Notes: a model not told the origin generated them from the letters alone. Positions 103-33,941 are shown, counted from the stretch's first letter. The stretch is DNA of 34,080 nucleotides from a virus (IMGVR_UViG_3300050120_000009:1-34080), one strand, 5' to 3'. Made by a program: numbers and translations.

Positions 103-363
103 CTAGTCTGTCTTGAGGTCTGTAGCTTTTGGTGTGTATCGAATGTTATCGTTGCCGCGAACACGATACCAGTCAGATGTTTGGTGAGTACCGGCTTTCG
201 GCTTCCATGGACCATCAATGATCTTACCCGTAACAGTCTTTGGTTGACCATTGTTGTCTGTTACGGTAAACACAACCTTGGTGCCTTTCTGTAGATCAGT
301 ATTGCTCAACGCGTGGACCTGCGTTGCGTTCAGACGTGTAGCTGCATTGAGTTTAGTTTTCAT
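103..363 (-). CDS. Small tagged protein, function unknown
   Basis: This 86-residue protein begins with the recurrent peptide (MKTKLNAATRLNATQV), the best preserved form of the tag at this end of the window. The remainder (residues 20-86) looks like a small beta-rich domain with segments such as KVVFTVTDNNGQ and WYRVRGN, reminiscent of hypervariable small phage domains, but I recognise no family. A GAGGCC ribosome binding site precedes the ATG. It is the last gene before a strong terminator and follows two further tagged genes, so it belongs to a run of three presumptive cargo genes. The start is well supported because the tag begins exactly there. Function is inferred only from the tag (possible packaged protein). 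Confidence 0.82.
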   Translation of the reverse strand: MKTKLNAATRLNATQVHALSNTDLQKGTKVVFTVTDNNGQPKTVTGKIIDGPWKPKAGTHQTSDWYRVRGNDNIRYTPKATDLKTD

Positions 364-369
364 TTGGCC

Positions 370-765
370 TCAATCGTCGTCGAACGCGATCACCACGTGA
401 TTCGTGGCATTCTTGGAATACACGGCGGTCACCGTGTCGGTGTGCGCCAGCTTGAAGCCGCTCAGATTCGGCAGTTTCAGCAGACCCTTGAACATGGCGG
501 CCACGTCTTGGCACGGGGCCAGTTTCTTGGCTGTACCATCAAACAGCACATAGGCTGCATCATTGCGCGTGCTGTAACCGGCTATATAACCCTTGAACTC
601 GGGAAACTTCTCGGCGATTTCGGTGTCGGTCAGATCTTCCTGATCGAGATCAATCACCTTGATCTTGCCGGTGATCTGGTAAATGCCTGTGCCGTTCTCT
701 TTCATAGCCGCCCGCACTTTTGACGACGCGGTCAGGCGTAGTGCTGCGTCCAATTCGATTTTCAT
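370..765 (-). CDS. Tagged protein, function unknown
   Basis: A 131-residue protein whose first residues, MKIELDAALRLTASSK, are a variant of the tag with Asp in place of Asn. The rest contains alternating strands and helices (for example ITGKIKVIDLDQEDLTDTEIAEKF and a C-terminal VVIAFDDD) with no family I can name. Its ATG overlaps the TAA of the upstream gene (TAATG), which points to translational coupling. Base composition looks more G+C-rich than the neighbouring tagged genes, which may hint at separate acquisition; this is a by-eye impression. Probably a cargo protein; no enzymatic motif seen. Confidence 0.82.
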   Translation of the reverse strand: MKIELDAALRLTASSKVRAAMKENGTGIYQITGKIKVIDLDQEDLTDTEIAEKFPEFKGYIAGYSTRNDAAYVLFDGTAKKLAPCQDVAAMFKGLLKLPNLSGFKLAHTDTVTAVYSKNATNHVVIAFDDD

Positions 766-1100
766 TATTGATCGCCCAGGAATTTTTCAACCAGTGCTAT
801 CTCATCATCAGAGATACCTTTCTTAGATTGTGGGTAGTTCTCACCCATAACTGCGTCCACAACCTTTTCCCAGTTGTCCTTGTGTTTGGCCGCGAATTTC
901 TCTAGCTTCTGTAGTTCAGAAGCTGTTACATTCTTCATGTATATTCGCGTGTGTCGATCGGAGAGGACATTGTCGGATTTGGAAAATCCCTCGACTACCT
1001 GATCCCACCTGCGCATCATTCCCTGCAGATTAGGTGGTATCGGTGCTGCTACGATTGCTTCGGTGGCGGTTAGTCTAGCGGCTGCACTGAGTTTAATCAT
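765..1100 (-). CDS. Tagged protein, function unknown
   Basis: A 111-residue protein starting MIKLSAAARLTATEA. The tag ends in A-T-E, which fits an A-x-E prohead protease site, and the mature part would begin at Ala15. The body is predicted mostly helical and charged (residues 55-111: ELQKLEKFAAKHKDNWEKVV, then a C-terminal helix ending KFLGDQ). No family recognised. It is the first of three consecutive tagged genes and follows a terminator-like hairpin at 1133-1156, so it may have its own promoter or depend on read-through. Confidence 0.82.
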   Translation of the reverse strand: MIKLSAAARLTATEAIVAAPIPPNLQGMMRRWDQVVEGFSKSDNVLSDRHTRIYMKNVTASELQKLEKFAAKHKDNWEKVVDAVMGENYPQSKKGISDDEIALVEKFLGDQ

Positions 1101-1132
1101 TATATATTCTCGTCCACTGCGTTTATTAAAAA

Positions 1133-1156
1133 GGCTAGGACTGTTACGTCCTAGCC
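1133..1156 (-). terminator. Rho-independent terminator
   Basis: A 9-bp perfect stem (1133-1141 with 1148-1156) and a 6-base loop. Read on the minus strand the hairpin is followed by TTTTTAATAAA, a classic U tract. It sits 19 bases after the stop of the 245-residue gene. Confidence 0.82.
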
Positions 1157-1174
1157 GTATTTTATACAGAAACG

Positions 1175-1912: not shown

Positions 1913-1987
1913 TTTAAATCCCTTGTTGTGAAAGGTTTGAAACGATTGCGAACCTCGGTGGGTTTGTTTGCTTATGCAATGTTAAAC

Positions 1988-1995: not shown

Positions 1996-2005
1996 ATTAA
2001 TTGAC

Positions 2006-3031
2006 TCAATGCGCAGCGCTGCTAGGTTTGTTACTATCTATCTCAGCCTGAGCTTTCTTCAACGCGTATTCCGGGATATCCCCGGTAGCAGCGTAGTCAG
2101 CAATGGTTTCAATAAGATGTTGCATCTGCTTTTCTTGTTGAGTCTTTTCGTCAGTAGCTAGCAAGCGCAAACTTGCATGTCGTGGCTTGATGTCGTCCTT
2201 AGTACCAGGACCACGTTGGTCATAATCACGTTCCCAGGCTTCCTTCGACTGCGGATGCCATGTACCTTTAGACCAGTAACCGTAGTCATCTTTATCGTCT
2301 TTGTCTTTAGACTTACTAGGTTGGTGACTCAATCTTGGTACATCGTCACCGTCTTCGTCACCCATCAGCTTGTCCTTGGCTATACCAAAACCCTTCTTGG
2401 CCAAGTCAAGTAACGGAGCACCAACCAGATGCTTGATAGCCATGAACGCTAGAAAGCCGACCGGACCAGTAGTACCTATAGCAGCCGCCATTACTGAACT
2501 ACCTATGATAGTACCCAGGAAGGAAGCGATATGCTTGGCGTCGTCTTTCGATGTCTTGCCTTGCAACACATGACCAACTGATACCATAGCATTTCCTACA
2601 CCTATACTGTCTCGAAGAATACCACGAGCTAGTCCACGGCTTTTCTTCTTGATTTGTCCAGCAGATTCTCTGCGTTCTGGACTGCCACTCTTCATCGACT
2701 TTGGTGTAACCTTCTGATGAGTCAGTTCCCGTGACTTTGGCTTAGTCTCAATTTCGTCAACATCTTCGACGTCGTCAGTATCAGGGGGTGCCTTACGATG
2801 AGGGCCTGATGGAACCACGTCCTTACTTTTTGGCGTTCCTGTTCCGTCAGTATCATCGGTTAGACTTGGCGCTTTACTTTTACTGGACTCACTCTCTTTA
2901 GCAAACTTGTGGCCCTTAGCAAACTGGCTGTTGGGATGCTCTTCCAAGTATTGCTGTTTAGCCTTCTTGGACAGTTCATCCCACCATTCAGCTTCAGCTA
3001 CTACCAATCGTGTTGCAGCTTGAAGGCGCAT
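2006..3031 (-). CDS. Tagged protein with hydrophobic central segment
   Basis: A 341-residue protein starting MRLQAATRLVVAEAE, a tag ending in V-A-E/A. Residues 16-44 (WWDELSKKAKQQYLEEHPNS followed by FAKGHK) resemble a motif often seen at the start of phage virion-associated proteins. Residues 45-130 are disordered and charged. Residues 169-209 are strongly hydrophobic and Gly/Ala-rich and could insert into a membrane. Residues 286-295 (ASLRLLATDE) are a second, internal tag-like copy, followed by a 46-residue helical tail; cleavage there would release a separate small peptide. The ATG has a perfect AGGAGG site. The combination of tag and membrane-active segment would suit an ejected protein that acts at the host membrane, but this is inference. 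Confidence 0.83.
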   Translation of the reverse strand: MRLQAATRLVVAEAEWWDELSKKAKQQYLEEHPNSQFAKGHKFAKESESSKSKAPSLTDDTDGTGTPKSKDVVPSGPHRKAPPDTDDVEDVDEIETKPKSRELTHQKVTPKSMKSGSPERRESAGQIKKKSRGLARGILRDSIGVGNAMVSVGHVLQGKTSKDDAKHIASFLGTIIGSSVMAAAIGTTGPVGFLAFMAIKHLVGAPLLDLAKKGFGIAKDKLMGDEDGDDVPRLSHQPSKSKDKDDKDDYGYWSKGTWHPQSKEAWERDYDQRGPGTKDDIKPRHASLRLLATDEKTQQEKQMQHLIETIADYAATGDIPEYALKKAQAEIDSNKPSSAAH

Positions 3032-3032
3032 T

Positions 3033-3254
3033 TCAACCTCCTGATCTACGGATCTTATTTTTTAGGGCCTGGATCTCTTCTAGCTTGCGCTTTTCCTCAG
3101 GGCTGCCTTTCTTGAAGTCCTTTACCTTATTCTCAGCGTCTCGCAAACGCTGCTTCAATCCCTGAACGATACCTTGAGGAGTGCCAGTATCTCTACCGGC
3201 TGCACTTACCTCAGTAGCTACCAGCCTAAACGTTGCGTTGAGTTTGGTTTTCAT
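3033..3254 (-). CDS. Small tagged coiled-coil protein
   Basis: A 73-residue basic protein beginning MKTKLNATFRLVATEVSAAG; the tag ends A-T-E and would leave a mature protein of about 57 residues. That part is Lys/Arg/Glu-rich with heptad-like spacing (LKQRLRDAENKVKDF, then EEKRKLEEIQALKNKI), so a short coiled coil is likely. It lies directly after the tail tube gene and 1 base before the next tagged gene. No clear Shine-Dalgarno sequence is visible before the ATG, so translation is probably coupled to the upstream gene. Function unknown. Confidence 0.78.
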   Translation of the reverse strand: MKTKLNATFRLVATEVSAAGRDTGTPQGIVQGLKQRLRDAENKVKDFKKGSPEEKRKLEEIQALKNKIRRSGG

Positions 3255-3836: not shown

Positions 3837-4379
3837 TTAACCAAGCGGTTGATTTACTGTGTTAAACAGCTTCGGGTCAGCGTCACTGAGGACTTCCTCG
3901 TCTTCTTCATCTGGATTTACTTCCATCGAAGCTAGTAGCCGTACATGAGCATTGGTTTTAATCTTGGCGACTTTGGCATCGATACCAGAACTATCGTCTT
4001 CGTTGTCTTGGGGTACGTCCATAACCACGTTAGTATCACCGGAACCGCCGTCTTCACCACCTTCGCTTTCATCTATACCGCTGCTTCCCTCACTCTGCTT
4101 TACAGCCTTCTGACCACCGTCATGACCTTCACCACCTTCCTCTGGAACATTGAGATTGGTCTCAGTAGTATCTCGGTCCGAATCCTTACTTTCATTCTTG
4201 TCGGTTTCAGCTGTAGTTTCACTCTTAGGCTCTTCGGACTCAGTACTCTTCTTGTGATCTTTTTGCTGGTCCTTCAATTGATCTTTGTTCTGCTCTTGAA
4301 ATCCATCTGCAGGTGCTATTAGACCTGTGCCTTCACCATCCGCAAGCAACCGAGTTGCTGCGTTTAATTGAACTTTCAT
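3837..4379 (-). CDS. Acidic tagged protein with internal second tag
   Basis: A 180-residue, highly charged, low-complexity protein starting MKVQLNAATRLLADGE. Residues 28-135 are rich in Glu, Asp, Lys, Ser and Gly and probably disordered. Residues 143-153 (NAHVRLLASME) repeat the core of the tag and again end in A-x-E form. Acidic disordered proteins cut at A-x-E sites are typical of prohead core proteins, so this could be a minor scaffold or internal head protein. The first 30 coding bases and the ribosome binding site are identical to those of the gene starting at 31832. It lies between sheath and tube genes, an unusual place for a head protein. Confidence 0.82.
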   Translation of the reverse strand: MKVQLNAATRLLADGEGTGLIAPADGFQEQNKDQLKDQQKDHKKSTESEEPKSETTAETDKNESKDSDRDTTETNLNVPEEGGEGHDGGQKAVKQSEGSSGIDESEGGEDGGSGDTNVVMDVPQDNEDDSSGIDAKVAKIKTNAHVRLLASMEVNPDEEDEEVLSDADPKLFNTVNQPLG

Positions 4380-8057: not shown

Positions 8058-9149
8058 TTAGATGCGCAGACCCTTAGCAACTGAGCGGCTGTTAGCCACG
8101 CTGACCGCCAACGATTCGAACATCACCCAGCCGCGACCCGGAACCTTCTCGATCGAGATGTCGATCGGTTGCGATTGCAGACCACCGCGATCCGAGTAAG
8201 CACCGTGGTTCAGAGCGTCAGCAATGACGAAGAATTCGCCTTGATTCAGCACCTTGTGTTCCGGATGACGATACGCATCCGAAGTAATGGTACAACCGTA
8301 CATCACACCGAGTTCACCCGTAAGCAACAGTTCGTGGCGAGCAACCGGGTCGATCGCGCTGAAGAAGTCACTGTTACCGATGAAATCCTGATAGATGTCA
8401 GTAGCGATCAAGACGTGCGGTGCTTTCAGGCCCCAACGCGTAACGTTCGTCATAACTTGTGCGAACGTGTAGGGCGTCAGCTGACCGGAGATAATCGACA
8501 GGGGATTATCGACGCCGACGATTTGGTTCACTTGGTTGTACCACAACCGATCTTCACCGACCATGATTGCTTCGGTTGCTTCCACATACTTTTCTTGCAG
8601 CACGTCACCAGCCGATTGATTCAGTTCGTTCATCGGAATGAACGGGCGAGTCACCACTTGCAGTTCCGGCGGGGTGAACCATTTGTCACGCGTGATTTGC
8701 GACTGAATCTTCGTGGGGCTGGTGCTATAGACAGCCGTTACGTTCTTGTTGCGCAGCGGGAAACGCGGGATTGCACCTTGTTCGACCGTAATCTTGGTAA
8801 GGTACTTCCGCATGAAACCCTGACGGTTGGCGGTGATGTACAACGAATCAGCCATACGTTCACCGAGAACGCGGTGAGCTTCGTGATCGTTGAACGCAGC
8901 AGCAACCAGTTCCTTCGACAACTTTGCACCTTGCTCTGCCGAGGCAAACACGCCGTCAGCAGCTAGTTGGCCATTCGATGCAGCTTGAATGAAAGCCATC
9001 TGGCGATTGATAAGTTCTTTCTTCGAACTGGCATTGATTTCACCATCCCGACCCAACGCACGTTCACCTGTGGTTGCGCCACCGAATCGATATTCACTGG
9101 CTGCCACCATCGGCGTCTTGGACGCACGAACTTTGACTTTTGTACGCAT
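8058..9149 (-). CDS. Major capsid protein, HK97 fold
   Basis: A 363-residue protein that would form the icosahedral shell. The middle and C-terminal parts match capsid protein patterns: an alpha-helical stretch with FNDHEAHRVLGERMADSLY, an E-loop-like region with IPRFPLRNKNVTAVY, a segment LKAPHVLIATDIYQDF and a final beta segment MFESLAVSVANSRSVAKG. Near the N-terminus, VAASE at residues 15-19 is an A-x-E site where a prohead protease could remove the first 19 residues. The start KVKVRAS resembles that of the scaffold gene (KLKVRAA). Codon choice is C- and G-ending more than in the small neighbours, as expected for a highly expressed gene. GGAG ribosome binding site; flanked on both sides by hairpins. 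Confidence 0.9.
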   Translation of the reverse strand: MRTKVKVRASKTPMVAASEYRFGGATTGERALGRDGEINASSKKELINRQMAFIQAASNGQLAADGVFASAEQGAKLSKELVAAAFNDHEAHRVLGERMADSLYITANRQGFMRKYLTKITVEQGAIPRFPLRNKNVTAVYSTSPTKIQSQITRDKWFTPPELQVVTRPFIPMNELNQSAGDVLQEKYVEATEAIMVGEDRLWYNQVNQIVGVDNPLSIISGQLTPYTFAQVMTNVTRWGLKAPHVLIATDIYQDFIGNSDFFSAIDPVARHELLLTGELGVMYGCTITSDAYRHPEHKVLNQGEFFVIADALNHGAYSDRGGLQSQPIDISIEKVPGRGWVMFESLAVSVANSRSVAKGLRI

Positions 9150-10039: not shown

Positions 10040-11647
10040 TCAGATGAACGGAAGCGGTGCTTTGCCAGACAGAACAGCCATTGCATTTACCGAATAACCA
10101 GCAGCGCTTGCATTGACTTCGCTACGACGTTGACGGATTTGTGCAGCCGGCCGTTGAAGCGCGGCATGGACAGTTTCGGGGCTTTCGATTTCGTCTTCGA
10201 AGTCATCATCGAATTCCGCGTCAGCGTCCTCAGCGGTAACGAATTCCGGTTCAGCATCTTCACCAAACTCATCTTCGTCGTCATCGATTTCACCGTCGGT
10301 GGTCATGTCCAGAGCCGCCGCAAACTGATTGCGGGTAACTTCTGGCATACCAACCAGCTTGTTAGCCAGCGTAAGAATCGACTTAGCGTAGTCAACACCC
10401 TTTGACGCAAAGATCCGACGAATCAAACGCGAAGCACCACGAACACCAGCGGCTTCAAGCTCGTCTTCCAACGCAGCACGCAATTCATTACGCGCGTCTT
10501 TGAAATACTGACGATTGATACCGACCGCAGCGATGGCCAAACATTGACCAAGAGCTTCATTCGAAGATTGAGTCGTACGACGCACAGCCGCAGTTACCTT
10601 CTTGGCCTTCGCTTCAACGCGCTTGTTGATCACGTCGTTCTTGGTAACGTTGATGGTTGCCAGGGCAAAACCCATCTTGGCCAAACCAGCACGCAGACCA
10701 TGTTTCGACATCTCTACGTATACTACTTCCTGGAACTGATCCGACATATACGTATCGCCGTGCCCAGCCTTAACTGCACGCTTCTTACCAATCGACGCTA
10801 CAATGCGATTGGCTTTGATAACGTGCACTTGCCGACCAACGGAAGCAAACACTGCGTCGTCGCCTTCGTCGTCAGTACCGTCAACGTCCACGACTGGCAT
10901 GTCGTCAGCACTAAGGACCGTGGAAGCTTCGATCTCGCCTTCTTCAGGTTCTTCGCTCTCGTCAGGTTCGCCGTCTTCTTCATCTTCGTCATCGAATTCA
11001 GAAACCACTTCGATGCTTTCCTCATCCCAGTCGTCGTCTTCGTCACCGACTTCCAGAAGTGATTGCGGAGTGGAGCCGCTGTCAACATCCAGTTCGGAGC
11101 CAGCATCGATTTCGTCTTCGTCGTCATCGAAATCATCTTCTAGCTCACCGCCAACCGTCAGATAACCAGCGGCCGGATCAATATCATTGTCCATATGCTG
11201 AGTATCTTGTTGACCGACTTCTTCGTCACAGTCTACGTCTGCTTCAACTTCGTCAGCCGGGAAGTCATCGCCTTCCATGGCTTGAGTAGTACCAGGAGCA
11301 TCAACCGTGTTGTTGGCCCTGGTCTTCGCCGGATGTTTCTTGGCGCTTTGCTTTGCCAGCGGAACCGGAGCATGCTTCTTGGTAGGCGCAGCGGTGGTTT
11401 TCTTCGCCTTTGTACTGGCGTTCATGCGATTGGTTTTTTCGCTGTAGGTGGTATCGTTCTGGAAGTGCGTTGAACCCTGGTCGTCCGTCGTGTCTTCCGG
11501 GTCGATCAACGTTTCCGGTTCCATGTGGTTGAGCAGCGTTTGCTTGCTGTCTTCCGGAGCCTTCGTAGTTTCATTTCGAAAGTGAGTCGACGTGCTTTCA
11601 CCATCAGCCGCCGCGCGCACTTTCAGTTTCTTTGTGACGATCGCCAT
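10040..11647 (-). CDS. Scaffold or prohead core protein
   Basis: A 535-residue protein. It starts MAIVTKKLKVRAAADGES; the K-[LV]-K-V-R-A part is shared with the MCP start. Residues about 20-28 and 59-67 are two copies of STHFxNxTT. Residues about 80-125 are Lys/Ala/Pro-rich, about 130-260 very acidic, about 270-430 a basic-helical domain, about 445-485 acidic again, and the C-terminus (residues 490-535) helical with a hydrophobic end. A long acidic protein before the MCP, downstream of the protease gene, is the expected scaffold (T4 gp22 role), and it would be degraded or trimmed on maturation. The ATG at 11647 has a GAGGAA site; an upstream in-frame ATG at 11698 does not. A promoter-like box lies at 11709-11716. 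Confidence 0.8.
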   Translation of the reverse strand: MAIVTKKLKVRAAADGESTSTHFRNETTKAPEDSKQTLLNHMEPETLIDPEDTTDDQGSTHFQNDTTYSEKTNRMNASTKAKKTTAAPTKKHAPVPLAKQSAKKHPAKTRANNTVDAPGTTQAMEGDDFPADEVEADVDCDEEVGQQDTQHMDNDIDPAAGYLTVGGELEDDFDDDEDEIDAGSELDVDSGSTPQSLLEVGDEDDDWDEESIEVVSEFDDEDEEDGEPDESEEPEEGEIEASTVLSADDMPVVDVDGTDDEGDDAVFASVGRQVHVIKANRIVASIGKKRAVKAGHGDTYMSDQFQEVVYVEMSKHGLRAGLAKMGFALATINVTKNDVINKRVEAKAKKVTAAVRRTTQSSNEALGQCLAIAAVGINRQYFKDARNELRAALEDELEAAGVRGASRLIRRIFASKGVDYAKSILTLANKLVGMPEVTRNQFAAALDMTTDGEIDDDEDEFGEDAEPEFVTAEDADAEFDDDFEDEIESPETVHAALQRPAAQIRQRRSEVNASAAGYSVNAMAVLSGKAPLPFI

Positions 11648-11708
11648 GAGTTCCTCGCTAAGTTTATAAAACAGAAATGAAAGGGGCGCCCGAATCATTT
11701 TTGTTAAA

Positions 11709-11843: not shown

Positions 11844-11992
11844 CTATTGGCGCTCTGTCCACATGCGCCGATAGCGACCCTTTGGATTTCTGAGAACAAA
11901 AGGAAGATTGAAAACCATCTTCAACTTTCCCTTTGAGAAATCGTCTACCCAGTCACCAGTCCGTGAAGGATCCTATTAAGGTCTCGTGTCAT
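11844..11992 (-). pseudogene. Small gene broken by a frameshift
   Basis: An ATG at 11990-11992 overlaps the stop of the upstream tagged gene (ATGA) and begins MTRDLNR, but this frame stops after 15 codons. The neighbouring frame is open from just after codon 7 (DPSRTGDWVDDFSKGKLKMV, continuing through FNLPFVLRNPKGRYRRMW) to a TAG at 11844, immediately before the terminator. Restoring one G in the AGGAT run would join the two into a protein of about 49 residues that fills the gap between gene and terminator exactly. This is either a decayed gene, a programmed frameshift or a sequencing error. A 25-residue product from an internal ATG is also possible. No family recognised. Confidence 0.5.
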
Positions 11993-12243
11993 AAGATGCC
12001 ACCCTTCTTAATAACCACCATTGGTAATGTATTTCCTGAATTAGTAATTACCGTCGAAAGATCGGTCTCTTCATAATATACATATTGGTTTTCAGGGCCT
12101 AGAGCTACCTGACGGGATGGATTCCAGGCCTTCATCTGCTCGGCGACAGCGCTCGTATCTCGTTTTACTTCTTCTTTGAACATCGGCGCGGCCGTTACTT
12201 CAGTTGCCTGCAGACGCAGTGCTGCGTTGAGTTCTATAGCCAT
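11989..12243 (-). CDS. Small tagged protein, function unknown
   Basis: An 84-residue protein starting MAIELNAALRLQATEVTAAP. The tag ends in A-T-E. The mature part (residues 15-84) has a helical first half (KEEVKRDTSAVAEQMKAW) and a strand-rich second half. I chose the ATG at 12243, one base after the TAG of the metalloprotease frame, because GGAG precedes it at the right distance; an in-frame ATG 24 bases earlier does not have a better site. Function unknown; probably a cargo protein in the same transcript as the metalloprotease. Confidence 0.8.
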   Translation of the reverse strand: MAIELNAALRLQATEVTAAPMFKEEVKRDTSAVAEQMKAWNPSRQVALGPENQYVYYEETDLSTVITNSGNTLPMVVIKKGGIL

Positions 12244-12244: not shown

Positions 12245-12931
12245 CTAGGCTCCAAAGTATTTTTCAAATGCAGAAAGCAGTTCGGGGTAGATTACGATCT
12301 TGCTGTTTGCGAATGACGGATGCATGAATGCGGCAAACGCTTCCGCGAAATACTCGAATTCATTCTCAGCCGCGTACTTCGACAATCGAGGTTGTATGCC
12401 ACCCGGTTCTTTCTTCTCTCACACGTATGCGGATCGTACCAGATTCGGGAATCCACCGAACGTGAAGAGTGATCGAACCAAGCCGTGACCGAATTCGTGG
12501 CGTACCGCGTCGTTCAGATAGGTTCCGCCAATCGACCATCCACCCGGACGTAGGGACGGCTGGTCACCGAACTTCAAACCCGCCGCCAGCGAAACGACTC
12601 CGTAACCATCCTTGTCCTCGAACAGACCCCCAGCGTCCCATCCGTTTGCGCGAAATGATTTACCCTTTATCAGATTGATCTCGTGGACCTGTATCTTATT
12701 GCAGGGCACGCCACGCGCGTACATGGTTTGGATGACTTTGTCGATTTCTGAAACTACCAGTCCAAATCGTTTGGGTGGGATAGCCTCGTCCACGTTCCGG
12801 ATCGGCACACCGTGACGCTCGATGAACTGCGTGACCGCAGGCTGTTGTTTCGTAGTCTTCGGCGTGTCATCGAAGTCGTCAGCCCACCCGCTTTTCAGCC
12901 TAAACGCGGCATTGAGCTGGATCTGGGTCAT
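12245..12931 (-). pseudogene. Tagged zinc metalloprotease with in-frame TGA
   Basis: The frame starts MTQIQLNAAFRLKSG (tag) and overlaps the prohead protease stop by ATGA. Residues 145-149 are HEFGH, the HExxH zinc site. A TGA at codon 171 (12419-12421) interrupts the frame, but it continues open for another 57 codons, ending at TAG 12245. The continuation contains SKYAAENEFEYFAEAFAAF (residues 182-200), the typical place for the third zinc ligand (a Glu) of gluzincin-type enzymes. The full frame fits the gap exactly and carries the ribosome binding site of the next gene. TGA is used as a normal stop elsewhere in the window, so recoding of all TGA is unlikely. A CGA-to-TGA mutation, stop read-through, or sequencing error could explain it. 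The TGA-terminated product (12419-12931) would lack the third ligand. Role inferred: injected protease. Confidence 0.82.
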
Positions 12932-18100: not shown

Positions 18101-19778
18101 CCGGACTGTCCTTAAGCAGATTACGTATCTTGGACTGGTGAGGTAGGAAGCCAATCTCACTAGATAGCAGAGGTATTGACGGCGGTTTCCATTTCGGATC
18201 AACCCCTTGTTCGATAGCTGCTTTACGGTTCGTAGTGTCGGCAGCACGTAGGGCTGGCATATCGTCGTTATACTTGGCGATCATAACGAGCCACGGCATT
18301 GCTTCGATAACTGTGGACACGCTGTATTTGTTGTACACCGGATCAATGTTATCACGAACCACTGCTTCTACTTCTTTGAAGTAACGAGCGAGTGCTCGGA
18401 ACGGACCAAAGCCTGTGCTATTGATATCAACGAGTTTGACCACGCTCTTGTCTTCCAAGCGCTTATACGCAAGGAGCGCTGCTTTATACCATTCTTGCGG
18501 TTTCTTGGCTTGTTGTAACGCAACTTCAATTGTGGGACCAAAATCAAGTCCTTCAAAATCAGAAGGTTTTCCACTGATCTTGTTAGCTGGTACACCGGCA
18601 GCCTCACCCATGCGCGTCATCAGATCGATTAGCTCCGGAGTCACCAGAGTATCATCAATGAGCGTGCGAATATGTGACACGTCTGCCTTACGGAAGCGTA
18701 TCAAATCCAATACTGTCATGTCACCACTGGTATTGGTGTAGGCGTACTTCAAATTCACCCAGTCAATCAGTACCGGCATGTTGGCAGGCAACGGATTCTT
18801 CAGATCATGTCCACTGGACATCGACTTGGCACCTTGGTCGATATCGAACATGCAGAAGCTACCGTCAGTGCGTGCACCAGCTTGAGTATAGCGATCCTCG
18901 TAGTCTACGGTCTGGCCTTTGTGAACTTCTTTAGGCAGATAGAACGGCGTGCCTTTAGGACCAATCGATAGGTTGTATTCATTGATACGTGCGTCTTCAA
19001 CGTGCGAAGGCGGCAACGTCATCGCGATCTTGGATATCGGGAAGCTAGTAAGCGGAGTAACGCCTAGTTCTCCGTATATGGTTCTCACCCATTGCAACAA
19101 TAGCGGATAGATATCGATGTCACGCAGTTGAACCCATGGAGTAGTCGTTAGCTGCTGTGCTTCTCCGCTGGTAATCTTAAAGTCAGCAAAGATAATGGAC
19201 AAAGCACCTTTCGACTGAACCCGAATAGCAAGCAACGTCTCCTTCAATTGAGCCGCTGCATTACCATTCAGCTTCATGGCAGCTACGACTCGTGGGCCCG
19301 GTATAGTCTTGTTGTCTTCAGACTCAGTATTATCTACTGTGAGCTTGTCGTTAGTGTCACGTAGTTCCTGCAAAGTCTCTGCAGTTGGTGTTTTAGGACC
19401 TGTCTTAGCTTCACCCAAGAACCAGTTCTTCAAAAATGTCATCATGTTCACAGTGTCAGAACGACCACTGTACAGTGGAACTGACGCTATGAAATATTGA
19501 TCGTGGCCTTGGTCTACTTTCTTGATCCGTAGATAACCATACGGAAGCGTTTTAGCCATCTGTTTGGCAACTACGCGCCCACGCATGGCCGTACCAAACT
19601 TTGGATCATGGGCTATTGACGGGAAGAACACCGAGGCCCACATCTTCGTCATAAAAGCTGACGGTGCTCCTACATAACCGTGATTGTAGACAAAGAGAAA
19701 GCGTGACTTCAGTTCCCGCTTCGGAAGCATCAAATCTTCAGGGATTATAAGATTTGTGGTTGGACGTAGATTGGCCAT
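15111..19778 (-). CDS. SNF2-like helicase, 1555 residues
   Basis: A superfamily-2 helicase of SNF2 type. Visible motifs are FLPHQSK with Walker A PVQAGGGKS (near residues 561-573), motif II LDESH (near 689), motif III SGTMVHDSPSD (near 716), motif V ASMETGLNFQFASRLIRTE and motif VI EQGNSRINRP (near 1036). A long acidic loop (near residues 860-890) separates the RecA-like halves. The first 550 residues and the last 400 are of unknown fold. It would use ATP to move along or remodel DNA or DNA-protein complexes; whether in packaging, replication or take-over of host DNA is not known. It sits in the structural region, followed by head-type genes. A promoter-like box lies 70-77 bases upstream. This type of very long helicase next to virion genes could itself be packaged, which is inference. 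Confidence 0.9.
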   Translation of the reverse strand: MANLRPTTNLIIPEDLMLPKRELKSRFLFVYNHGYVGAPSAFMTKMWASVFFPSIAHDPKFGTAMRGRVVAKQMAKTLPYGYLRIKKVDQGHDQYFIASVPLYSGRSDTVNMMTFLKNWFLGEAKTGPKTPTAETLQELRDTNDKLTVDNTESEDNKTIPGPRVVAAMKLNGNAAAQLKETLLAIRVQSKGALSIIFADFKITSGEAQQLTTTPWVQLRDIDIYPLLLQWVRTIYGELGVTPLTSFPISKIAMTLPPSHVEDARINEYNLSIGPKGTPFYLPKEVHKGQTVDYEDRYTQAGARTDGSFCMFDIDQGAKSMSSGHDLKNPLPANMPVLIDWVNLKYAYTNTSGDMTVLDLIRFRKADVSHIRTLIDDTLVTPELIDLMTRMGEAAGVPANKISGKPSDFEGLDFGPTIEVALQQAKKPQEWYKAALLAYKRLEDKSVVKLVDINSTGFGPFRALARYFKEVEAVVRDNIDPVYNKYSVSTVIEAMPWLVMIAKYNDDMPALRAADTTNRKAAIEQGVDPKWKPPSIPLLSSEIGFLPHQSKIRNLLKDSPDFAILPVQAGGGKSVLLLTDILYEIKANRSQPYLVLCPGHLVANYVKEVVYFTGGKLNVVAITRFAIRQNGWARLKAILVAAPRNTVVVTEYDSLAYREQSICYGTKPIEVFPVIDFLRQFAFGYVALDESHLVKNATSRSKSTMALITDIPKKRLASGTMVHDSPSDLAMQVAMMDPTLFGDKEKFNETYGEVVRGGRVIQWKKGAPELIQAKIRSRIVSAGAMRKEWAALLPTKREWIGGVELRTAQLELYNTILGDTVDKITEKAKAGNKNLQKFLGLDKKKKITNEDLEEENDNGEDSGEDEEEDAADEDAGESVESALRPYLARLEAFLMAPASDVLGKTALKGDDRISPKTMAIIERIRLHIFGGEIEDPDTGQKVPYGPFPGKVLVFTNSVVSAEEVWALAGPELQKCGVLYKAARKLEDGARFEKDKRVKWMVGVSASMETGLNFQFASRLIRTETVWNPGTLEQGNSRINRPELKAEELRKEIFFDTIVANHTIDITKTARLISKVIAAAKFENAENADYATIPDVEIIKMTLEDVREFNSWEAVDAEHPGLRDYAIAQSKYEQVRNADYEQYKQDYIELHGEGPVKQTIPVAPIPADAKLLKRVPYAPGLDIYNAKEMGLVRIDEYLNISSNDDDDSSENEDDSAEDSASPIAAQAASLKGRLAHTEFGDGYISNCSPITPFVRVSLLNGYSMTVRKAQCFLITRGETSTKDIRNQLLKSVGIKDIATPVDVPAERWVPMKQSVKDKIIKEKAEKVTKMKEVRETELKSALSIELTFVVANGFLGIDYIIDETNHKAMQALSACGFRPSQPFYYSKIINAKALELQFKLWQEKGLRPDPVILKQNVPAAFREMLQLLKSGQIRNHAATYKAASSAGIVNFYRLSHKASSDKMLFKPYPVIQDGVAYIALPSNGQAGTKNAMLWKRPSYRWHLSEPTLSYYGTIQQIIAMMKKVQSSGVQITNIDDLKRDFVKLKKMKIRAPSDDII

Positions 19779-21141: not shown

Positions 21142-21804
21142 CTACATCCACTTGTTACTAATCGGCCCAGTGATCTCACCTTTGCCTTCACCAGTGCTGC
21201 TATTGCGAGACCCAGTAAATTTCCAATAGCCTACTTGACTGTCGTGGCTTTCGTCCTCATAAGCGATCAAGTTACGGTCGTTAGGGTCGTTGCGATCCGG
21301 GGCAACATCAGCTTTCGGATATTTCTTCATTAGATCCGATTCCCATTTGTCACAGTCGGTATACGTATTGGCAGTAACCAAACCTAGGCGAAGAGCCGCT
21401 CGCAATGTATTGGGACTAGCACCGTCGTCGATCAATGCTTCTTGATCGCCGCTTACATCAACACCTACATCGTCAGCACCAACACCATCATCAAGTGTCG
21501 AGTCTTGTGTCTGTTGTTGGTTGCTGGTGCCTTCAGGTGCGCCATCGTTTAGTATAAGATCGTCAGGGCTAGTTGTGTTCGGGTCGTAGTCGCCATCCAA
21601 CACTTCCTGTTGTTCCGACAGACCAGTATCACCCGTAGCAACTACAGTTTCTTTCGAATCCGCCAGCATTTCATACATGATTGCTTCTAGCGTTTCGTGA
21701 TCAGTATTGACTGACTCAGCCAATCCATGTACTTGCGCATCCGAGGGTTTAGAATTCAAAGCCAAGAACGCAACAATTAAACGGGTCAACAATTCTTTGT
21801 CCAT
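21142..21804 (-). CDS. Two-part protein with internal tag-like motif
   Basis: A 220-residue protein. Residues 1-50 (MDKELLTRLIVAFLALNSKP, then DAQVHGLAESVNTDHETLEA) form a small helical domain that I recall as frequent at the start of small proteins in T4-like and other large phages, of unknown function. Residues 55-130 are acidic and disordered. Residues 132-147 contain TLRAALRLGLVTANTY, which resembles the tag core, followed by a folded C-terminal part ending KFTGSRNSSTGEGKGEIT. The gene may be a fusion of a helical adaptor and a tagged module. An AAAGGTG site supports the start. Confidence 0.8.
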   Translation of the reverse strand: MDKELLTRLIVAFLALNSKPSDAQVHGLAESVNTDHETLEAIMYEMLADSKETVVATGDTGLSEQQEVLDGDYDPNTTSPDDLILNDGAPEGTSNQQQTQDSTLDDGVGADDVGVDVSGDQEALIDDGASPNTLRAALRLGLVTANTYTDCDKWESDLMKKYPKADVAPDRNDPNDRNLIAYEDESHDSQVGYWKFTGSRNSSTGEGKGEITGPISNKWM

Positions 21805-21814: not shown

Positions 21815-22177
21815 TTATTTTATGGTAGCGAACTTTGCACGTAAAGCTTTGATATCTGGTGGAACCTTGCCTTCAGGAACGAATTCAGTGACCTGATAGC
21901 GTATGTCTTCAAATAGCTTGGCTGCTGTTTTTCCTTCAGCGTCGAAGCCACCTGCAAAATTCTTGGTACGCAACGAGAACAACAGAGTATCTGAATCCAT
22001 GGTTAAGTCTAGTTCAGCACTGAACTTGCTACTCTTCCAAATGATACGTTGTTCATCTGAGTCTTCGTCGGTAACGAAATGAGGGCCTAACACCTTCTTG
22101 ACGGCGGTCAATACGCGGCCGGCTTCTTTCGAGTCAGCCAGTAACCGTGTAGCAGCATTTAGCTCAATGGCGGTCAT
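21815..22177 (-). CDS. Tagged protein, paralogue of 31876-32358
   Basis: A 120-residue protein starting MTAIELNAATRLLADSK. After the tag, KEAGRVLTAVKKVLGPHF and IIWKSSKFSAELDL align with EEAGKLLTVLKPILGSDF and IVWKNSIYRAGIEL in the gene at 31876-32358, so the two are diverged copies of the same tagged domain. The body is predicted alpha/beta with a hydrophobic strand LLFSLRTK. I know no family. The pair shows that tag and body have duplicated together. Start supported by the tag; ribosome binding site is GAGAAT. Confidence 0.83.
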   Translation of the reverse strand: MTAIELNAATRLLADSKEAGRVLTAVKKVLGPHFVTDEDSDEQRIIWKSSKFSAELDLTMDSDTLLFSLRTKNFAGGFDAEGKTAAKLFEDIRYQVTEFVPEGKVPPDIKALRAKFATIK

Positions 22178-24667: not shown

Positions 24668-24937
24668 TTAAGTCCACAAGTCAATCATTAGATTACCTTT
24701 GCTGACTCCAACTGATACTTCGGAGCTGCCTTTAACCCAGGTGTCCAGCCTTATAGTCGCAGCCTTACTGAAAACAAAGCCGTTGCTCTCCAATTTCTTG
24801 ATGAACGCGGTTGCTTTCACATACGCATCAGCAGCTGACTTGCACACGAAAGTATTACCGCCTAGTGAGAGATTATAGTTGTCGAGTAAAGCTAGATTAT
24901 CCTTGGCCGTCAGCCTCGATGAAGCGTTCAGTTTCAT
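24668..24937 (-). CDS. Small tagged protein, function unknown
   Basis: An 89-residue protein starting MKLNASSRLTAKDN, a short tag variant. The body has AADAYVKATAFIKKLESNGF (a helix) followed by three strands ending NLMIDLWT. The SAADAYVK segment loosely resembles VADAATKM in the gene at 29634-29987, so they may be distant relatives. A CAGGTGAT site precedes the ATG, overlapping the stop of the large structural-type gene upstream. Confidence 0.8.
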   Translation of the reverse strand: MKLNASSRLTAKDNLALLDNYNLSLGGNTFVCKSAADAYVKATAFIKKLESNGFVFSKAATIRLDTWVKGSSEVSVGVSKGNLMIDLWT

Positions 24938-26479: not shown

Positions 26480-26779
26480 TCAATCCTCAGTTTTCAATAA
26501 ACGTAATGCGGCATTGAGTTTGACGCCTTGCACTGGAATCGTAGGTTGTGCCGCAGTGTTGTTCGCTTGGTTGTTATGTTCGCGTGTGCCGATCGGTAAT
26601 TCTTCATCGAATTCAGCACTTATTTCTCTATCCTGTTCGGATTTTAGCTTAACATCGGCCTTGCATGAAATACATCCCAGTGACGACTTGGGACCACCGC
26701 AACGCATACGAACACCGTCGGCCCTAGGAAACACGTGGCCGTGACCTTCGTTAAGACCGTCGACCCGTTTTGGTCTCAT
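26480..26779 (-). CDS. Small protein with the tag at its C-terminus
   Basis: A 99-residue protein. The first part has RMRCGGPKSSLGCISCK, a possible zinc-binding Cys cluster, followed by an acidic and then an Asn/Ala-rich linker. The last residues are VKLNAALRLLKTED, the same peptide found at the N-terminus of many other proteins here, but placed at the very end. Either the tag also works at the C-terminus, or the product is a fusion remnant of a gene whose body was lost. I prefer the ATG at 26779 (AGGA at a spacing of 6); ATGs at 26785 and 26824 are also in frame, the latter within the upstream gene. Confidence 0.78.
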   Translation of the reverse strand: MRPKRVDGLNEGHGHVFPRADGVRMRCGGPKSSLGCISCKADVKLKSEQDREISAEFDEELPIGTREHNNQANNTAAQPTIPVQGVKLNAALRLLKTED

Positions 26780-26787
26780 CTTCATTC

Positions 26788-28224
26788 CTATTTGGTAGGA
26801 CGTGTACCGGGCTTGAAATCCCAAGTATTAGTGGGCGACGCACCGCCAGGAGGCAACGACGGACTTCTCTTAGGTGCGTTACCTTCACCAGCACCCTCAT
26901 TCAGAATGTTGACAACCTTCCGCAATCGACTGTCATCCAAACCAAATCGATCGGCCAGGAATTCGGCATCGTGGTTGGTTACTTCACCGCGTTCCGCCAC
27001 GTTGATCAATGTGAAAGTAATCTTTTGTTTGGTAGGCTTTACCTGAAGCTTGGCTTTCCGGCTCTTGGTTAGATCACGGTGGAACAGTGCCTTCACTTCT
27101 TCGTACAACGGATACTTGATTTCATCGACTTGTTCTTGTGTAGTGCCCTTACGTAGAATAAACGTAATCGTATTGGCGTCCACATCAATACGGCTGATGA
27201 AGTCCTTGTAGGTAAACATCGTTGGCGTAATCTGCGAAGGTTCCATGCGCAGTTGAGTAGCCAGCGGAAGTGCACCCAAGCTCGTACTGAACTCTTCAAG
27301 ATCCAGTAGGCGACTGATAGCCTTAACTGCCTCACCAGCACTAGCTACATCAGTGCCACCTTCCTTCATCAATTGCGCAGGCAGTTCAAACTCATGATTG
27401 ACCTGCACTACCACGGACTTGGTTACTGTCCATTGGATACTTATGTACAGATGCGGTGTTACCTTGCCTTCATCATTCGTGGCGTTCTGCAGCAGAATGT
27501 AGTTGGTGAACACCAGATCTTTATCTGGACTGGTATTGACATACATGAATTGCTCGGAGTCTTCAAAGAATACGTGTTCCGAGATCTCTTGCATAACGGC
27601 TTCACGGTATTTCATGAAGGTCTTTGGCACATGTTCCGCCGCTACCTTGTTGAGAAAACCCAACACTTCTTTCAGTTGTCCGCCAACCTTGTCTTTCAAT
27701 GCCTTGATAGCACCGATGGCATTGTTGTATTCCTTGCCACTCCGATCCGGAAACTGCATGGCTACCTGAGTTTCTACGGCTTGCAATAAGCGATGCTTCT
27801 CGTAGAGTTCTTCAGTCAGCGCATATTGCTCACGGAGCTTGGTGATATTCGGAATAACAAACTTCGGAAGATCAGGGTCAATCTTCCGCTTCAGGTGGGA
27901 CTTCGAACCACCTTCAGGTTGAGTGATGTTCATGGAGAAGCCGGCGGCTTTAACCAAAGCAGCGCGGATAAAATCCTTGGGCTTTGTTAGATAGGCCAAA
28001 GCTTCTTGTTGAATCTTTACCACTTGATCGAGTTCGTCCAATTCCTCGCGCATTGTATCTAAGAAACGAGACACGTCATCAATGTAGCGGAACTTCGGTA
28101 GTTCCACGGCGCAGACCTTTTGGGCTGCTGTTGTCATGGTAGCTTTAACCTTCTGTTTTGTCTTGGATTTCTTTGTAGTTGCGATCGTTGCTTGCAGTCG
28201 TTGCACGGCGTTGGTAGCCATCAT
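26788..28224 (-). CDS. Large phage protein, coiled-coil start, unknown
   Basis: A 478-residue protein. Its start (MMATNAVQRLQATIATTKKS) looks only loosely like the tag (N-A-x-x-R-L-x-A-T) and it has a basic run before residue 30. The middle contains helical segments (FLDTMREELDELDQVVKIQQ, LREQYALTEELYEKHRLLQA) and beta-rich parts, and the C-terminus is Pro/Gly-rich. It may be a virion protein. No family recognised. The stop is followed at short distance by the gene carrying a C-terminal tag. Start is supported by AGGAACAA. Confidence 0.8.
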   Translation of the reverse strand: MMATNAVQRLQATIATTKKSKTKQKVKATMTTAAQKVCAVELPKFRYIDDVSRFLDTMREELDELDQVVKIQQEALAYLTKPKDFIRAALVKAAGFSMNITQPEGGSKSHLKRKIDPDLPKFVIPNITKLREQYALTEELYEKHRLLQAVETQVAMQFPDRSGKEYNNAIGAIKALKDKVGGQLKEVLGFLNKVAAEHVPKTFMKYREAVMQEISEHVFFEDSEQFMYVNTSPDKDLVFTNYILLQNATNDEGKVTPHLYISIQWTVTKSVVVQVNHEFELPAQLMKEGGTDVASAGEAVKAISRLLDLEEFSTSLGALPLATQLRMEPSQITPTMFTYKDFISRIDVDANTITFILRKGTTQEQVDEIKYPLYEEVKALFHRDLTKSRKAKLQVKPTKQKITFTLINVAERGEVTNHDAEFLADRFGLDDSRLRKVVNILNEGAGEGNAPKRSPSLPPGGASPTNTWDFKPGTRPTK

Positions 28225-30485: not shown

Positions 30486-30938
30486 TCAGGAAAATGCGCC
30501 TACTTCCTTAAGATCGTCTTTCATAAGTTCGAAGTAATGTTCACCGCTGGATCCAATAAAGTTAGGCTTCACATGTTTGTTAAGTGCAGTTTCTTGGTCA
30601 GCACCAGCGGCTACCTCATCCGCGTAGGCACGCAAAGCTCGGCAAAGCCTGCTGTTGATATTCGGACGTTTGTCGATCAACTTCTCTACGCCGATGTTAT
30701 ACGGATCATCCTTGGCTGCCAAAAGACGAGTTGCGGCATTAAGTTTAACTGACATGGTATTAGCCTTTGATTTTGGTTTGGTGTGAGTTTCGTTCTGTAG
30801 GATATGTGTGATCAAGCCATAGTTGTCGCCCTTTCCTTCTCCTTTGGCGATGCCTTTTGCTTTATCCCACTTCTTCTCCAAGGAAGGAACACTACCCTTT
30901 CCTTGTTCAGACAATTTCTTCAAGTATGGTGTAGGCAT
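30486..30938 (-). CDS. Two-part protein with internal tag
   Basis: A 150-residue protein. Residues 1-52 (MPTPYLKKLSEQGKGSVPSL, then KAKGIAKGEGKGDNYGLITH) resemble a small helical domain frequent in phage-encoded structural or host-interacting proteins. At residues 62-78, MSVKLNAATRLLAAKDD is a complete tag with its own ATG and a plausible AAAGG site, followed by a helical body (CRALRAYADEVAAGADQETA). The gene could express two products: the full protein and a tagged 89-residue form starting internally (at 30755). Alternatively it is a recent fusion of an untagged and a tagged gene. Function unknown. Confidence 0.8.
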   Translation of the reverse strand: MPTPYLKKLSEQGKGSVPSLEKKWDKAKGIAKGEGKGDNYGLITHILQNETHTKPKSKANTMSVKLNAATRLLAAKDDPYNIGVEKLIDKRPNINSRLCRALRAYADEVAAGADQETALNKHVKPNFIGSSGEHYFELMKDDLKEVGAFS

Positions 30939-30941
30939 GAT

Positions 30942-31511: not shown

Positions 31512-31529
31512 ACTGAACCCTTATTTGAT

Positions 31530-31832
31530 TTAACTGGCGATGACTACAACCCAGTCATCATCGTAGTCACCATCTTGTCGGTCGGTCAATTGCATCTTTT
31601 GGAATCCCTTACCGTTTATATAATCTCGTACCCATGCCCTTGCTTTTAGGACACTGGTATTCTTGAAAGAAAACTCCAGATAGTCTTTACCATTATGTTT
31701 GTAATGATTGATCGTATCCGGTTTACCAGACGCAGGATAACGGCCGTCACGACGCTGGAAATCATCGGTAGCAAGAGAAGCTGGATCAACTGCACTGAGT
31801 AGTCGAGTTGCTGCGTTTAATTGAACTTTCAT
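31530..31832 (-). CDS. Tagged protein, function unknown
   Basis: A 100-residue protein starting MKVQLNAATRLLSAVD, with 5-prime DNA identical to that of the gene ending at 4379. The body (DFQRRDGRYPASGKPDTINH, GKDYLEFSFKNTSVLKARAW) looks like a small alpha/beta domain and ends DDDWVVVIAS. I prefer the ATG at 31832, since AGGAG precedes it at optimal distance; the ATG at 31847 lies upstream of that site. No family recognised. Confidence 0.82.
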   Translation of the reverse strand: MKVQLNAATRLLSAVDPASLATDDFQRRDGRYPASGKPDTINHYKHNGKDYLEFSFKNTSVLKARAWVRDYINGKGFQKMQLTDRQDGDYDDDWVVVIAS

Positions 31833-31842: not shown

Positions 31843-31875
31843 GTCATCCGTCATAGCCCGTTCAAAATATAATTT

Positions 31876-32358
31876 TCAAGAAATGGTTCGATTTCTTTCC
31901 AGGTCCAACCATTTATCTTGTCCACGTTTTAAGCCCTTACCCTTTAGGCTTTTTGTCGCTGGGCTTGAGTCCTTAATATTTCTTAATTTCTTCAATATCA
32001 CCTGGAGTTCTGGGGATAACTTATTGAGTGATGTATTAAAGACCTCGCGTTTAATTTTCTTAATCACGTCGTCAGCAACTCCGATCTCTTCTATCGAATA
32101 ACAGGAAACCGTTAAATCAAAGTTATCCTTATCTGCTGAAAACCAAAATGCTAGGTGGTCCCCAATGTCCAATTCAATCCCTGCCCTGTAGATAGAATTT
32201 TTCCAAACAATTTCTTCCAGATTACCTCTCCTGGATTTTTTAAAATCAGAACCTAGTATAGGTTTTAGTACCGTCAAAAGCTTACCTGCTTCTTCCTGAG
32301 TAGAAGCAATAATTTTATTAGTTTCTAATAGTCGAGTTGTTGCATTGAGCTTAAACAT
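31876..32358 (-). CDS. Tagged protein, paralogue of 21815-22177
   Basis: A 160-residue protein starting MFKLNATTRLLETNK. After the tag it aligns with the gene at 21815-22177 (EEAGKLLTVLKPILGSDF and IVWKNSIYRAGIEL), and extends by about 40 residues at the C-terminus, which is basic (KSLKGKGLKRGQDKW). A+T content here appears higher than in most of the window. Function unknown; the duplication shows that the tag travels with its body. Confidence 0.82.
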   Translation of the reverse strand: MFKLNATTRLLETNKIIASTQEEAGKLLTVLKPILGSDFKKSRRGNLEEIVWKNSIYRAGIELDIGDHLAFWFSADKDNFDLTVSCYSIEEIGVADDVIKKIKREVFNTSLNKLSPELQVILKKLRNIKDSSPATKSLKGKGLKRGQDKWLDLERNRTIS

Positions 32359-32413
32359 AGATATACTCTTTAGTTGAAAAGTTCTAACAAATGACTAGAA
32401 GCATTGAGTTCCA

Positions 32414-33247
32414 TCATACCTTACCTTTCTTTTGGAATTTGCGACGTATGTCCACAGTGTTCGATATTACGTCAACCACAGTACCCTTGACCTTATTGGA
32501 AGGAAAAGTTAGTATCACCTCCTTCTGTCGTTTAATGAAAGGCCTCAAAATACTCTTCATCCCATTTGTGATCTTTGCTCCGGATCCTACGTTTCCCCAA
32601 GTAAGATTCGGATTAATTTTCATCAATTCATGTAACCAGCCATCATAATAGGTACGTACAGCTTCAATAAAGGAAACACAAGAATCATAGGACCCTACAA
32701 GGTTTGTAGTAGAAACAGAAACCTTATATACCACTGAGGCACAATCCACTTTAATATTTTTGAGTAGATATGGGTCCTTGGTCACCTCTTGCTCGGATTT
32801 CCCCCTCACACGCTTCCAGAATGTCCTCGGGTAGTTTGGATCGCCACTAAAGCTCAATATTTGACGAAACTCAGGTATGTTCTGATCCCCCAAAAGATCA
32901 GGACTTGATAGTCCTTTTGAATTGGGTATCATTGTGGCTCTATAAACAATCTTTGGAATTTTACTAGGATAATACTTTTGTACGGTCTTTAAATGTTTCT
33001 TCATTAGAAAAAGGCTATTGGCATCCCAATCTTTTGAGGGGTGTCCAAGATAGCCTTCAAACCATTGTTGGATATTATTAAGTATCGCCTTTATTGCTAA
33101 GGATCTACTTATGGTACCCCGTAAATCGTCTGTGCAAGCAATAAAATTTTTATAGCCTTCGGAGCTTATCAATTTATTTAAATATTCTTCCGAACGATTT
33201 ATCTTGGATAAAGCTAATAAACGAGTAGCCGCATTAAGTTGATACAT
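32414..33247 (-). CDS. Tagged ADP-ribosyltransferase-like protein
   Basis: A 277-residue protein starting MYQLNAATRLLALSK. Its C-terminal two-thirds show the R-S-E arrangement of ADP-ribosyltransferases: Arg103 in KIVYRATM, the S-x-S motif at residues 132-134 (ILSFSGD), and QKE at 241-243 in RQKEVILTFPSNKVKG, which looks like the E-V-L-L-P-P end motif of these enzymes with Gln-x-Glu. Such an enzyme would move ADP-ribose from NAD to host proteins. T4 packages an ADP-ribosyltransferase (Alt) in the head with an N-terminal capsid signal, which this gene would parallel. Start at 33247 is chosen because AAGGAA precedes it and the tag begins there; the reading frame extends 11 codons further upstream. 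The identification is pattern-based and needs alignment. Confidence 0.72.
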   Translation of the reverse strand: MYQLNAATRLLALSKINRSEEYLNKLISSEGYKNFIACTDDLRGTISRSLAIKAILNNIQQWFEGYLGHPSKDWDANSLFLMKKHLKTVQKYYPSKIPKIVYRATMIPNSKGLSSPDLLGDQNIPEFRQILSFSGDPNYPRTFWKRVRGKSEQEVTKDPYLLKNIKVDCASVVYKVSVSTTNLVGSYDSCVSFIEAVRTYYDGWLHELMKINPNLTWGNVGSGAKITNGMKSILRPFIKRQKEVILTFPSNKVKGTVVDVISNTVDIRRKFQKKGKV

Positions 33248-33251
33248 ATGG

Positions 33252-33332
33252 CTATTCCTTGGTCTCGTCAAACTTTTCAAGGTACTTCGGGACTCTCAAC
33301 TCAGGTCCCCACGGCTGACTTTTAAATGTCAT
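33252..33332 (-). pseudogene. Short fragment resembling the end of the 31511 gene
   Basis: An open frame of 26 codons (MTFKSQPWGPELRVPKYLEK and six more residues) ends with TAG 4 bases before the next ATG. The PWGPELRVP core also ends the membrane protein gene at 30942-31511 (TFSSVPWGPELRVP). This suggests a residual piece of a duplicated copy of that gene, kept because it contains the ribosome binding site for the next gene. No strong ribosome binding site of its own is visible. It could also be a genuine small gene. Confidence 0.55.
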
Positions 33333-33350
33333 TGTATGTCATTGTATGTC
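33326..33350. repeat. 10-base tandem repeat, 2.5 copies
   Basis: The unit ATGTCATTGT occurs twice, then ATGTC. It covers the stop codon of the Nudix gene (TGA at 33339-33341) and the ATG of the short fragment ORF. It probably arose by slippage at the junction left by gene loss. Confidence 0.85.
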
Positions 33351-33941
33351 TTTGGTTTGTATACGTGGCCGAATGATGTTGGTCTTCAACCCGGCTTCCA
33401 GGTGATAGCGTAAGGTGTCCATCGATACTTTGTCGTTCAACAGACAGTCCAAGCCTGGATGCAACGGTGTAGGCCATTCACCAAAAGTAAACCAGTCGTA
33501 GCCATCATTCTCCCAGTTCAGCTCAGGGTCAAATTGATGATCAACGACTACCAGGAAATTGTAGTAGACATAACCACGGTCCATATTGCGGTAGGTCATC
33601 AGCGGATACACACCATGCGCGTCGTTAGTATGTCCACCGTCGGAAGGCTTGCCCCCCGGAAGTTTAGTTTCTTCATAGACCTCCCTAAGCATCCCCTTCT
33701 TCGGAGTCTCATTACCGTTGACTGTACCACCAAACGTTGACCATAGTCCAGGGTCTGATACTTCTAAGCTACGTTTACCAAGAAGGATCTTACGGGTGTC
33801 CAGAGCTAGAATAATACCACCGGCCGCCATCGACTTCCAATACTCAGTATCATGAAGTGGTGGTTTGAATTTGCCATCTTCTTCTGCTTGCTGTATATCG
33901 CCTTCAGTCAATAGAAGGCGAGTGAGTGCCAAGAGTTTCAT
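33339..33941 (-). CDS. Nudix hydrolase with tag-like start
   Basis: A 200-residue Nudix hydrolase. The Nudix box is at residues 72-94: Gly72, Glu78, then REVYEE (Arg86, Glu87, Glu90, Glu91) with Leu94; the usual final Gly is replaced (TKL). It would hydrolyse a nucleoside diphosphate linked to another moiety, such as ADP-ribose, dinucleotides or damaged nucleotides; I cannot assign the substrate. The N-terminus MKLLALTRLLLTEGD is a degenerate tag (LALTRLLLTE) with a T-E end. A Nudix hydrolase beside an ADP-ribosyltransferase-like gene would be a meaningful pair, acting on NAD-related substrates. AAGAGGC ribosome binding site. Confidence 0.9.
   Translation of the reverse strand: MKLLALTRLLLTEGDIQQAEEDGKFKPPLHDTEYWKSMAAGGIILALDTRKILLGKRSLEVSDPGLWSTFGGTVNGNETPKKGMLREVYEETKLPGGKPSDGGHTNDAHGVYPLMTYRNMDRGYVYYNFLVVVDHQFDPELNWENDGYDWFTFGEWPTPLHPGLDCLLNDKVSMDTLRYHLEAGLKTNIIRPRIQTKDIQ

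Follow-up and report, generated by a model that had tools for sequence, protein, structure and literature searches.

A short peptide shared by otherwise unrelated proteins in the structural gene block of a jumbo-phage clade, probably a signal for loading accessory proteins into the virion

In phage T4, internal proteins become associated with the prohead core through a capsid-targeting sequence (CTS), and Alt undergoes trimming at its N- and C-termini (PMC5694885). The CTS of the internal proteins and Alt resembles the tag described here in being a short N-terminal peptide found on differing internal proteins of a phage with a prohead protease (PMC5694885, PMC7411985). However, the clade tag differs from it in sequence and has no general cleavage motif at its end. 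It is carried by up to ~20 proteins per genome, against ~4 in T4, and it also occurs at C-termini and at both ends, with lineage dialects. In phage P1, the N-terminal 30 residues of DarB, an accessory anti-restriction protein, are sufficient to package a reporter, and no common N-terminal consensus was found among the Dar proteins by BLAST (PMC9024508). If the clade tag does package its carriers, it would be similar to the DarB signal as an N-terminal packaging signal on accessory cargo; unlike the Dar proteins, it has a strong consensus common to unrelated bodies. SPN3US and phiKZ are likewise jumbo phages that encode a prohead protease and have numerous proteins inside the head, but the propeptides of their ejection proteins are mostly 111-254 residues long and occur on few proteins (PMC10052503), whereas the clade tag is short and repeated. 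The clade tag departs from the T4 and P1 precedents in how widely it is used, in its sharp consensus, in its dialects and in occurring at either terminus. By description the tag is also like the encapsulin cargo-loading peptides and microcompartment encapsulation peptides, which are short, modular and terminal and load unrelated enzymes into a protein shell, with the difference that these belong to cellular compartments.

The window, i.e. the whole 34,080-base virus record analysed here, is a fragment of a jumbo myovirus related to BcepSauron and BcepSaruman (Burkholderia), to both of which its major capsid protein (MCP) is 84% identical, and to Achromobacter phage Motura (61%). It covers a head/tail block with prohead protease, scaffold-like, capsid, sheath, tube and connector genes. 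A search of IMG/VR gave 50 loci related to it, and the comparisons were made on 16 sequences, taken in whole or in large parts: the window, 13 IMG/VR contigs, Motura and BcepSauron. The tagged genes and their principal neighbours are as follows.

103-363, minus strand: tagged, 86 aa, MKTKLNAATRLNATQ; body without homologue in the 15 other genomes or contigs
370-765, minus strand: tagged, 131 aa, MKIELDAALRLTASS
765-1100, minus strand: tagged, 111 aa, MIKLSAAARLTATEA
2006-3031, minus strand: tagged, 341 aa, MRLQAATRLVVAEAE; second tag-like copy PRHASLRLLATDE at 2147-2185
3033-3254, minus strand: tagged, 73 aa, MKTKLNATFRLVATEV
3837-4379, minus strand: tagged, 180 aa, MKVQLNAATRLLADGE; second copy KTNAHVRLLAS at 3927-3959
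8058-9149, minus strand: major capsid protein, without tag; conserved N-terminal motif, which in most relatives ends in A-[AST]-[ED]
10040-11698, minus strand: acidic scaffold-like head protein, untagged; start probably at 11647
11989-12243, minus strand: tagged, 84 aa, MAIELNAALRLQATEV; adjoins the scaffold-like gene
12245-12931, minus strand: tagged metallopeptidase-like gene (HEFGH), MTQIQLNAAFRLKSGW; tagged homologue in contig G001
12928-13776, minus strand: prohead (head maturation) protease, untagged; PHROG 18299, E 1.5e-82
21142-21804, minus strand: conserved protein, tag-like NTLRAALRLGL at 21379-21411 followed by an unrelated C-terminal stretch
21815-22177, minus strand: tagged, 120 aa, MTAIELNAATRLLADSK; body resembles 31876-32358
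24668-24937, minus strand: tagged, 89 aa, MKLNASSRLTAKDN
26480-26824, minus strand: C-terminally tagged; last 13 residues KLNAALRLLKTED, then stop, 26483-26521
26788-28224, minus strand: tagged, 478 aa, MMATNAVQRLQAT
30486-30755, minus strand: tagged, 89 aa, MSVKLNAATRLLAAKD, ATG at 30755
31530-31832, minus strand: tagged, 100 aa, MKVQLNAATRLLSAVD
31876-32358, minus strand: tagged, 160 aa, MFKLNATTRLLETNK; body resembles 21815-22177
32414-33247, minus strand: tagged, 277 aa, MYQLNAATRLLALSK; no family match or relative found
33339-33941, minus strand: tagged NUDIX hydrolase, degenerate tag MKLLALTRLLLTEGD; PF00293, E 6.7e-14

In total, 16 genes of the window carry an N-terminal tag and one a C-terminal tag, and three proteins have a second or internal copy. 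The tag is ~11-14 residues long with the core [KQE]-[LI]-[NQE]-A-x-x-R-L-x-A, also given as K-[LI]-[NQE]-A-[AK]-x-R-L-x-A. The core pattern matched 15 N-termini in the window against 0.3 in shuffles, and the clade profile (score >=13) found 16 N-terminal copies against 0 in shuffled ORFs, which excludes a chance origin. In unannotated contigs the ORFs were called mechanically and the profile decided on their start codons; this can bias the choice towards the tag, but the shuffles had the same freedom. The first-pass annotation had named 14 gene-start peptides, all of which were found, on the minus strand. However, it overlooked the N-terminal tags of 26788-28224 and 30486-30755 as well as the C-terminal (26483-26521), second (3927-3959, 2147-2185) and internal (21142-21804) copies. 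One gene on its list, 12245-12931, is tagged as described but is not an uninterrupted frame: it contains an in-frame TGA at 12419-12421, before and after which the same frame matches the intact G001 homologue, as far as 12251. This may be a pseudogene, a sequencing error or readthrough. The tag of 33339-33941, called degenerate, is indeed so in the window, whereas that of its homologue in contig G009 is canonical (MKLNAATRLLAHKDGEEW).

The bodies behind the tag are largely unrelated. As had been claimed, there is only one similar pair in the window (clustering joined 21815-22177 and 31876-32358 alone), and enzymes such as the NUDIX protein are included. The recognisable bodies across the clade are NUDIX, GNAT (three clusters), SprT-like, saccharopine/homospermidine-synthase-like, DEDD (RNase_T) exonuclease and HEFGH metallopeptidase-like proteins; most have no family match, weak Pfam hits below the threshold in small tagged proteins being disregarded. 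Position 1 of the RNase_T Pfam profile falls on residue 24 of the DEDD exonuclease, indicating that the tag precedes a complete exonuclease domain. Tagged relatives of 2006-3031 exist in several genomes (cluster C1), and the body of 26480-26824 has a Cys/His motif in common with BcepSauron gp093. For 32414-33247, a reading as an Alt-like ADP-ribosyltransferase was rejected: it had no Pfam, PHROG or PDB match and no relatives in viral contigs, and its single-sequence AlphaFold model (pLDDT 36) was useless for this purpose. Two 'FYRG/YHGT' proteins (L149:1639-2145, L152:43056-43580) likewise had no Pfam or PHROG support as ADP-ribosyltransferases.

Furthermore, the same body may occur with or without the tag, at either end. 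The homospermidine-synthase-like enzyme is tagged inside the block in G005, G009 and G011, while Motura gp275, outside the block, is untagged and begins directly at the Rossmann motif. Similarly, a GNAT protein is tagged in the block of G012, and its homologue in G011, 66 kb from the capsid gene, is untagged. The 21142-21804 family has a C-terminal tag in G001, G005, G006 and G009 and none in Motura, G010, G011 and G012; behind the tag, the window and G008 each have an unrelated sequence fused, differing between the two, as if the tag junctions were fusion points. In BcepSauron gp093 and gp276, and likewise in the gp276 homologue of G001, two copies of the tag occur, either at different places in the protein or one at each end. 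It was proposed earlier that the tag is a reusable module, and the unrelated bodies together with gain and loss on the same body strongly support this. They also speak against a tag without sorting function that survives from a single ancestral gene family, its bodies having diverged until no similarity could be recognised. The window does contain two tagged bodies of one family, as such a history would predict, but the folds are unrelated (NUDIX, GNAT, SprT, Rossmann dehydrogenase, DEDD exonuclease), and we consider this origin hardly credible. Two observations may be added on these genes. In Motura, an untagged homospermidine-synthase-like gene lies outside the structural block beside a glutathionylspermidine synthase gene, and a deazaguanine (Que) gene set is also found there. 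The protein of 21142-21804 is acidic with 'DG' repeats.

The tag is conserved as a peptide. All six codons are used for the conserved Arg of the window tags, and this, together with the C-terminal copies, indicates selection at the peptide level and not a translation or RNA signal. The A and R of the tag hardly vary, but both are residues for which the profile selects. The first-pass annotation had mentioned an effect on translation initiation, and the position of most copies at gene starts would agree with an initiation enhancer, a regulatory element or recently copied leader DNA. However, the diverse synonymous codons and the copies at C-termini and inside proteins contradict any such nucleic-acid-level feature, which is thus very improbable. 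The peptide also varies by lineage: LNAATRL in the window, LQAKxRL in G013-G015, IEAAxRLKA in G010/G011 and IQAAxRL in Motura. Tags on unrelated bodies were 59% identical within a genome and 49% between genomes, a difference that 0 of 2000 label permutations reached. These dialects fit a tag that co-evolves with a partner common to each lineage, or one that has been copied repeatedly; recent copying is made less likely by the codon diversity.

A motif search in related phages, suggested in the first-pass annotation, found 206 N-terminally tagged ORFs (score >=13) in 15 of the 16 genomes or contigs, window included, with a shuffle null of 0-2 each. At a cut-off of 11, 211 ORFs fell into 121 body clusters, 84 of them singletons. 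A shared N-terminal peptide on otherwise unrelated proteins, known from T4-type capsid-targeting sequences, is therefore present here (206 ORFs, 121 clusters), whereas the strict N-terminal position of the T4 type is not kept, with C-terminal and internal copies occurring. BcepSauron has only three strong N-terminal tags although its MCP is 84% identical to that of the window. No tags were found by profile in G017, which has the most distant MCP (53% identity), and a de novo search gave no convincing N-terminal repeats in the structural regions of PaBG, NCTB, PhiXhv-12, GR11A, Aura and RHph_N28_1. An exact-pattern search, done twice over 2.9 million viral contigs, gave 17 stretches, of which all except one (L173) hold further tags or belong to contigs already found via the capsid gene. 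From these results, the tag looks like a character of this jumbo-phage clade that more distant relatives lack. In the literature, the string LNAATRL matched only an unrelated paper, and no virion proteomics of a tagged phage was found in publications naming BcepSauron or Motura. Virion proteomics exists for PaBG (PMC7412058) but is uninformative on the tag, as the PaBG stretch examined has none.

The location of the tagged genes is equally distinctive. Almost all tags are found no further than 45 kb from the MCP gene: 15 of 16 in Motura, 10 of 10 in G001, 13 of 13 in G011, 10 of 11 in G005 and 20 of 22 in G006. Among the annotated genes of Motura, 15 tagged ones fall within the structural block (48 genes) and a single one outside it (Fisher p 2.5e-13). 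However, location in the block does not require a tag: the SprT-like homologues in G010 and G011 are untagged inside it, and untagged members of the 26788-28224 family occur there too; the homologues of this gene in Motura, BcepSauron and G010-G015 begin at the body, without the tagged extension. Homologues of the tagged window bodies occurred in a median of 0.5 of the 15 other genomes, those of their untagged neighbours in 12.5 (p 1e-5). Judged from sequence comparison, such rapid turnover of bodies beside conserved neighbours is what one would expect of exchangeable cargo within an assembly block that is itself conserved. The acidic scaffold-like gene, for example, is kept in all 15 other genomes or contigs, although its scaffold role is putative. 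In related phage annotation this protein carries the label 'ATPase', which looks doubtful. An untagged SNF2-type helicase (1555 aa, 15111-19778) also lies within the head gene block, with homologues in 14 of 15 relatives; it could be a virion protein.

We infer that the tag is probably a modular protein-sorting signal by which accessory proteins are taken into the virion as it assembles; the most likely destination is the prohead core, the site of protease and scaffold action. A common partner, possibly the scaffold or a capsid protein, would recognise the A-x-x-R-L core, and a tag at either terminus would make any protein cargo. The phage could then swap cargo freely, and the cargo would probably be delivered to the host with the DNA. 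On the other hand, the structural block also contains tail genes (sheath, tube and connector beside the head genes, with the tagged 3837-4379 sitting between tail tube and sheath), and the tag could for this reason act for the tail or for a late compartment outside the virion. Tail or baseplate assembly, the inner membrane, a replication body or a phage nucleus would all be conceivable destinations other than the head, the last having been proposed in the first-pass annotation. With phiKZ gp54 as query, tblastn and phmmer detected no homologue of chimallin (ChmA), a search by sequence only in which several genomes were incomplete. Moreover, tagged genes adjoin the protease and scaffold-like genes, and behind the tag they encode variable enzymes and small proteins, not conserved tail parts. 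A destination outside the head thus appears quite improbable.

Loading into the head leads to the question of cleavage. The first-pass annotation had compared the tag with the T4 peptide that is cut off during maturation. The comparison holds as the best functional analogue, with the tags clustering with prohead protease, scaffold-like, capsid and tail genes and marking fast-changing, cargo-like ones, but it does not extend to general removal. If the tag were a strict T4-style propeptide, always N-terminal, the prohead protease would cut after A/S/G-x-E at its end. The protease gene is within the block, and [ASG]-x-E at the tag end (offset 9) occurs in 21 of the 206 tags, a 7-fold enrichment over the 1.4% base (p 4e-12). 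In addition, the second copies in 2006-3031 and 3837-4379 end LLATDE and LLASME. However, A/S/G-x-E is missing from a fixed position in ~90% of the tags, and this, with the C-terminal and internal copies, does not indicate general proteolytic removal, which is perhaps untrue. We therefore regard a strict propeptide as unlikely, though less so than a destination outside the head; removal limited to the subset of tags bearing A-x-E at the tag end is possible. Residues ~7-20 of the MCP have a clade-wide short motif ending A-[AST]-[ED] (VAASE, VLATE, VVATD), and this motif, which agrees with a cutting protease of the T4 kind, is a candidate prohead-protease site.

Going further than loading itself, and only tentatively, the tag might be a position-independent cargo code, used at either or both ends and read by a co-evolving receptor in the capsid core, so that the head would be a general container for exchangeable enzymatic cargo addressed by lineage postcodes, not homologous to the T4 and P1 signals. 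If the tag does load proteins into the virion, sequence alone would be enough to predict which proteins an entire jumbo-phage clade packages and probably injects, and the more than 100 mostly unknown bodies would be a source of candidates for host takeover and anti-defence. It would also provide a short tag, possibly independent of position, with which foreign proteins could be loaded into large phage heads. Finally, cargo selection in giant heads, for which long propeptides were the previously known solution, would become testable.
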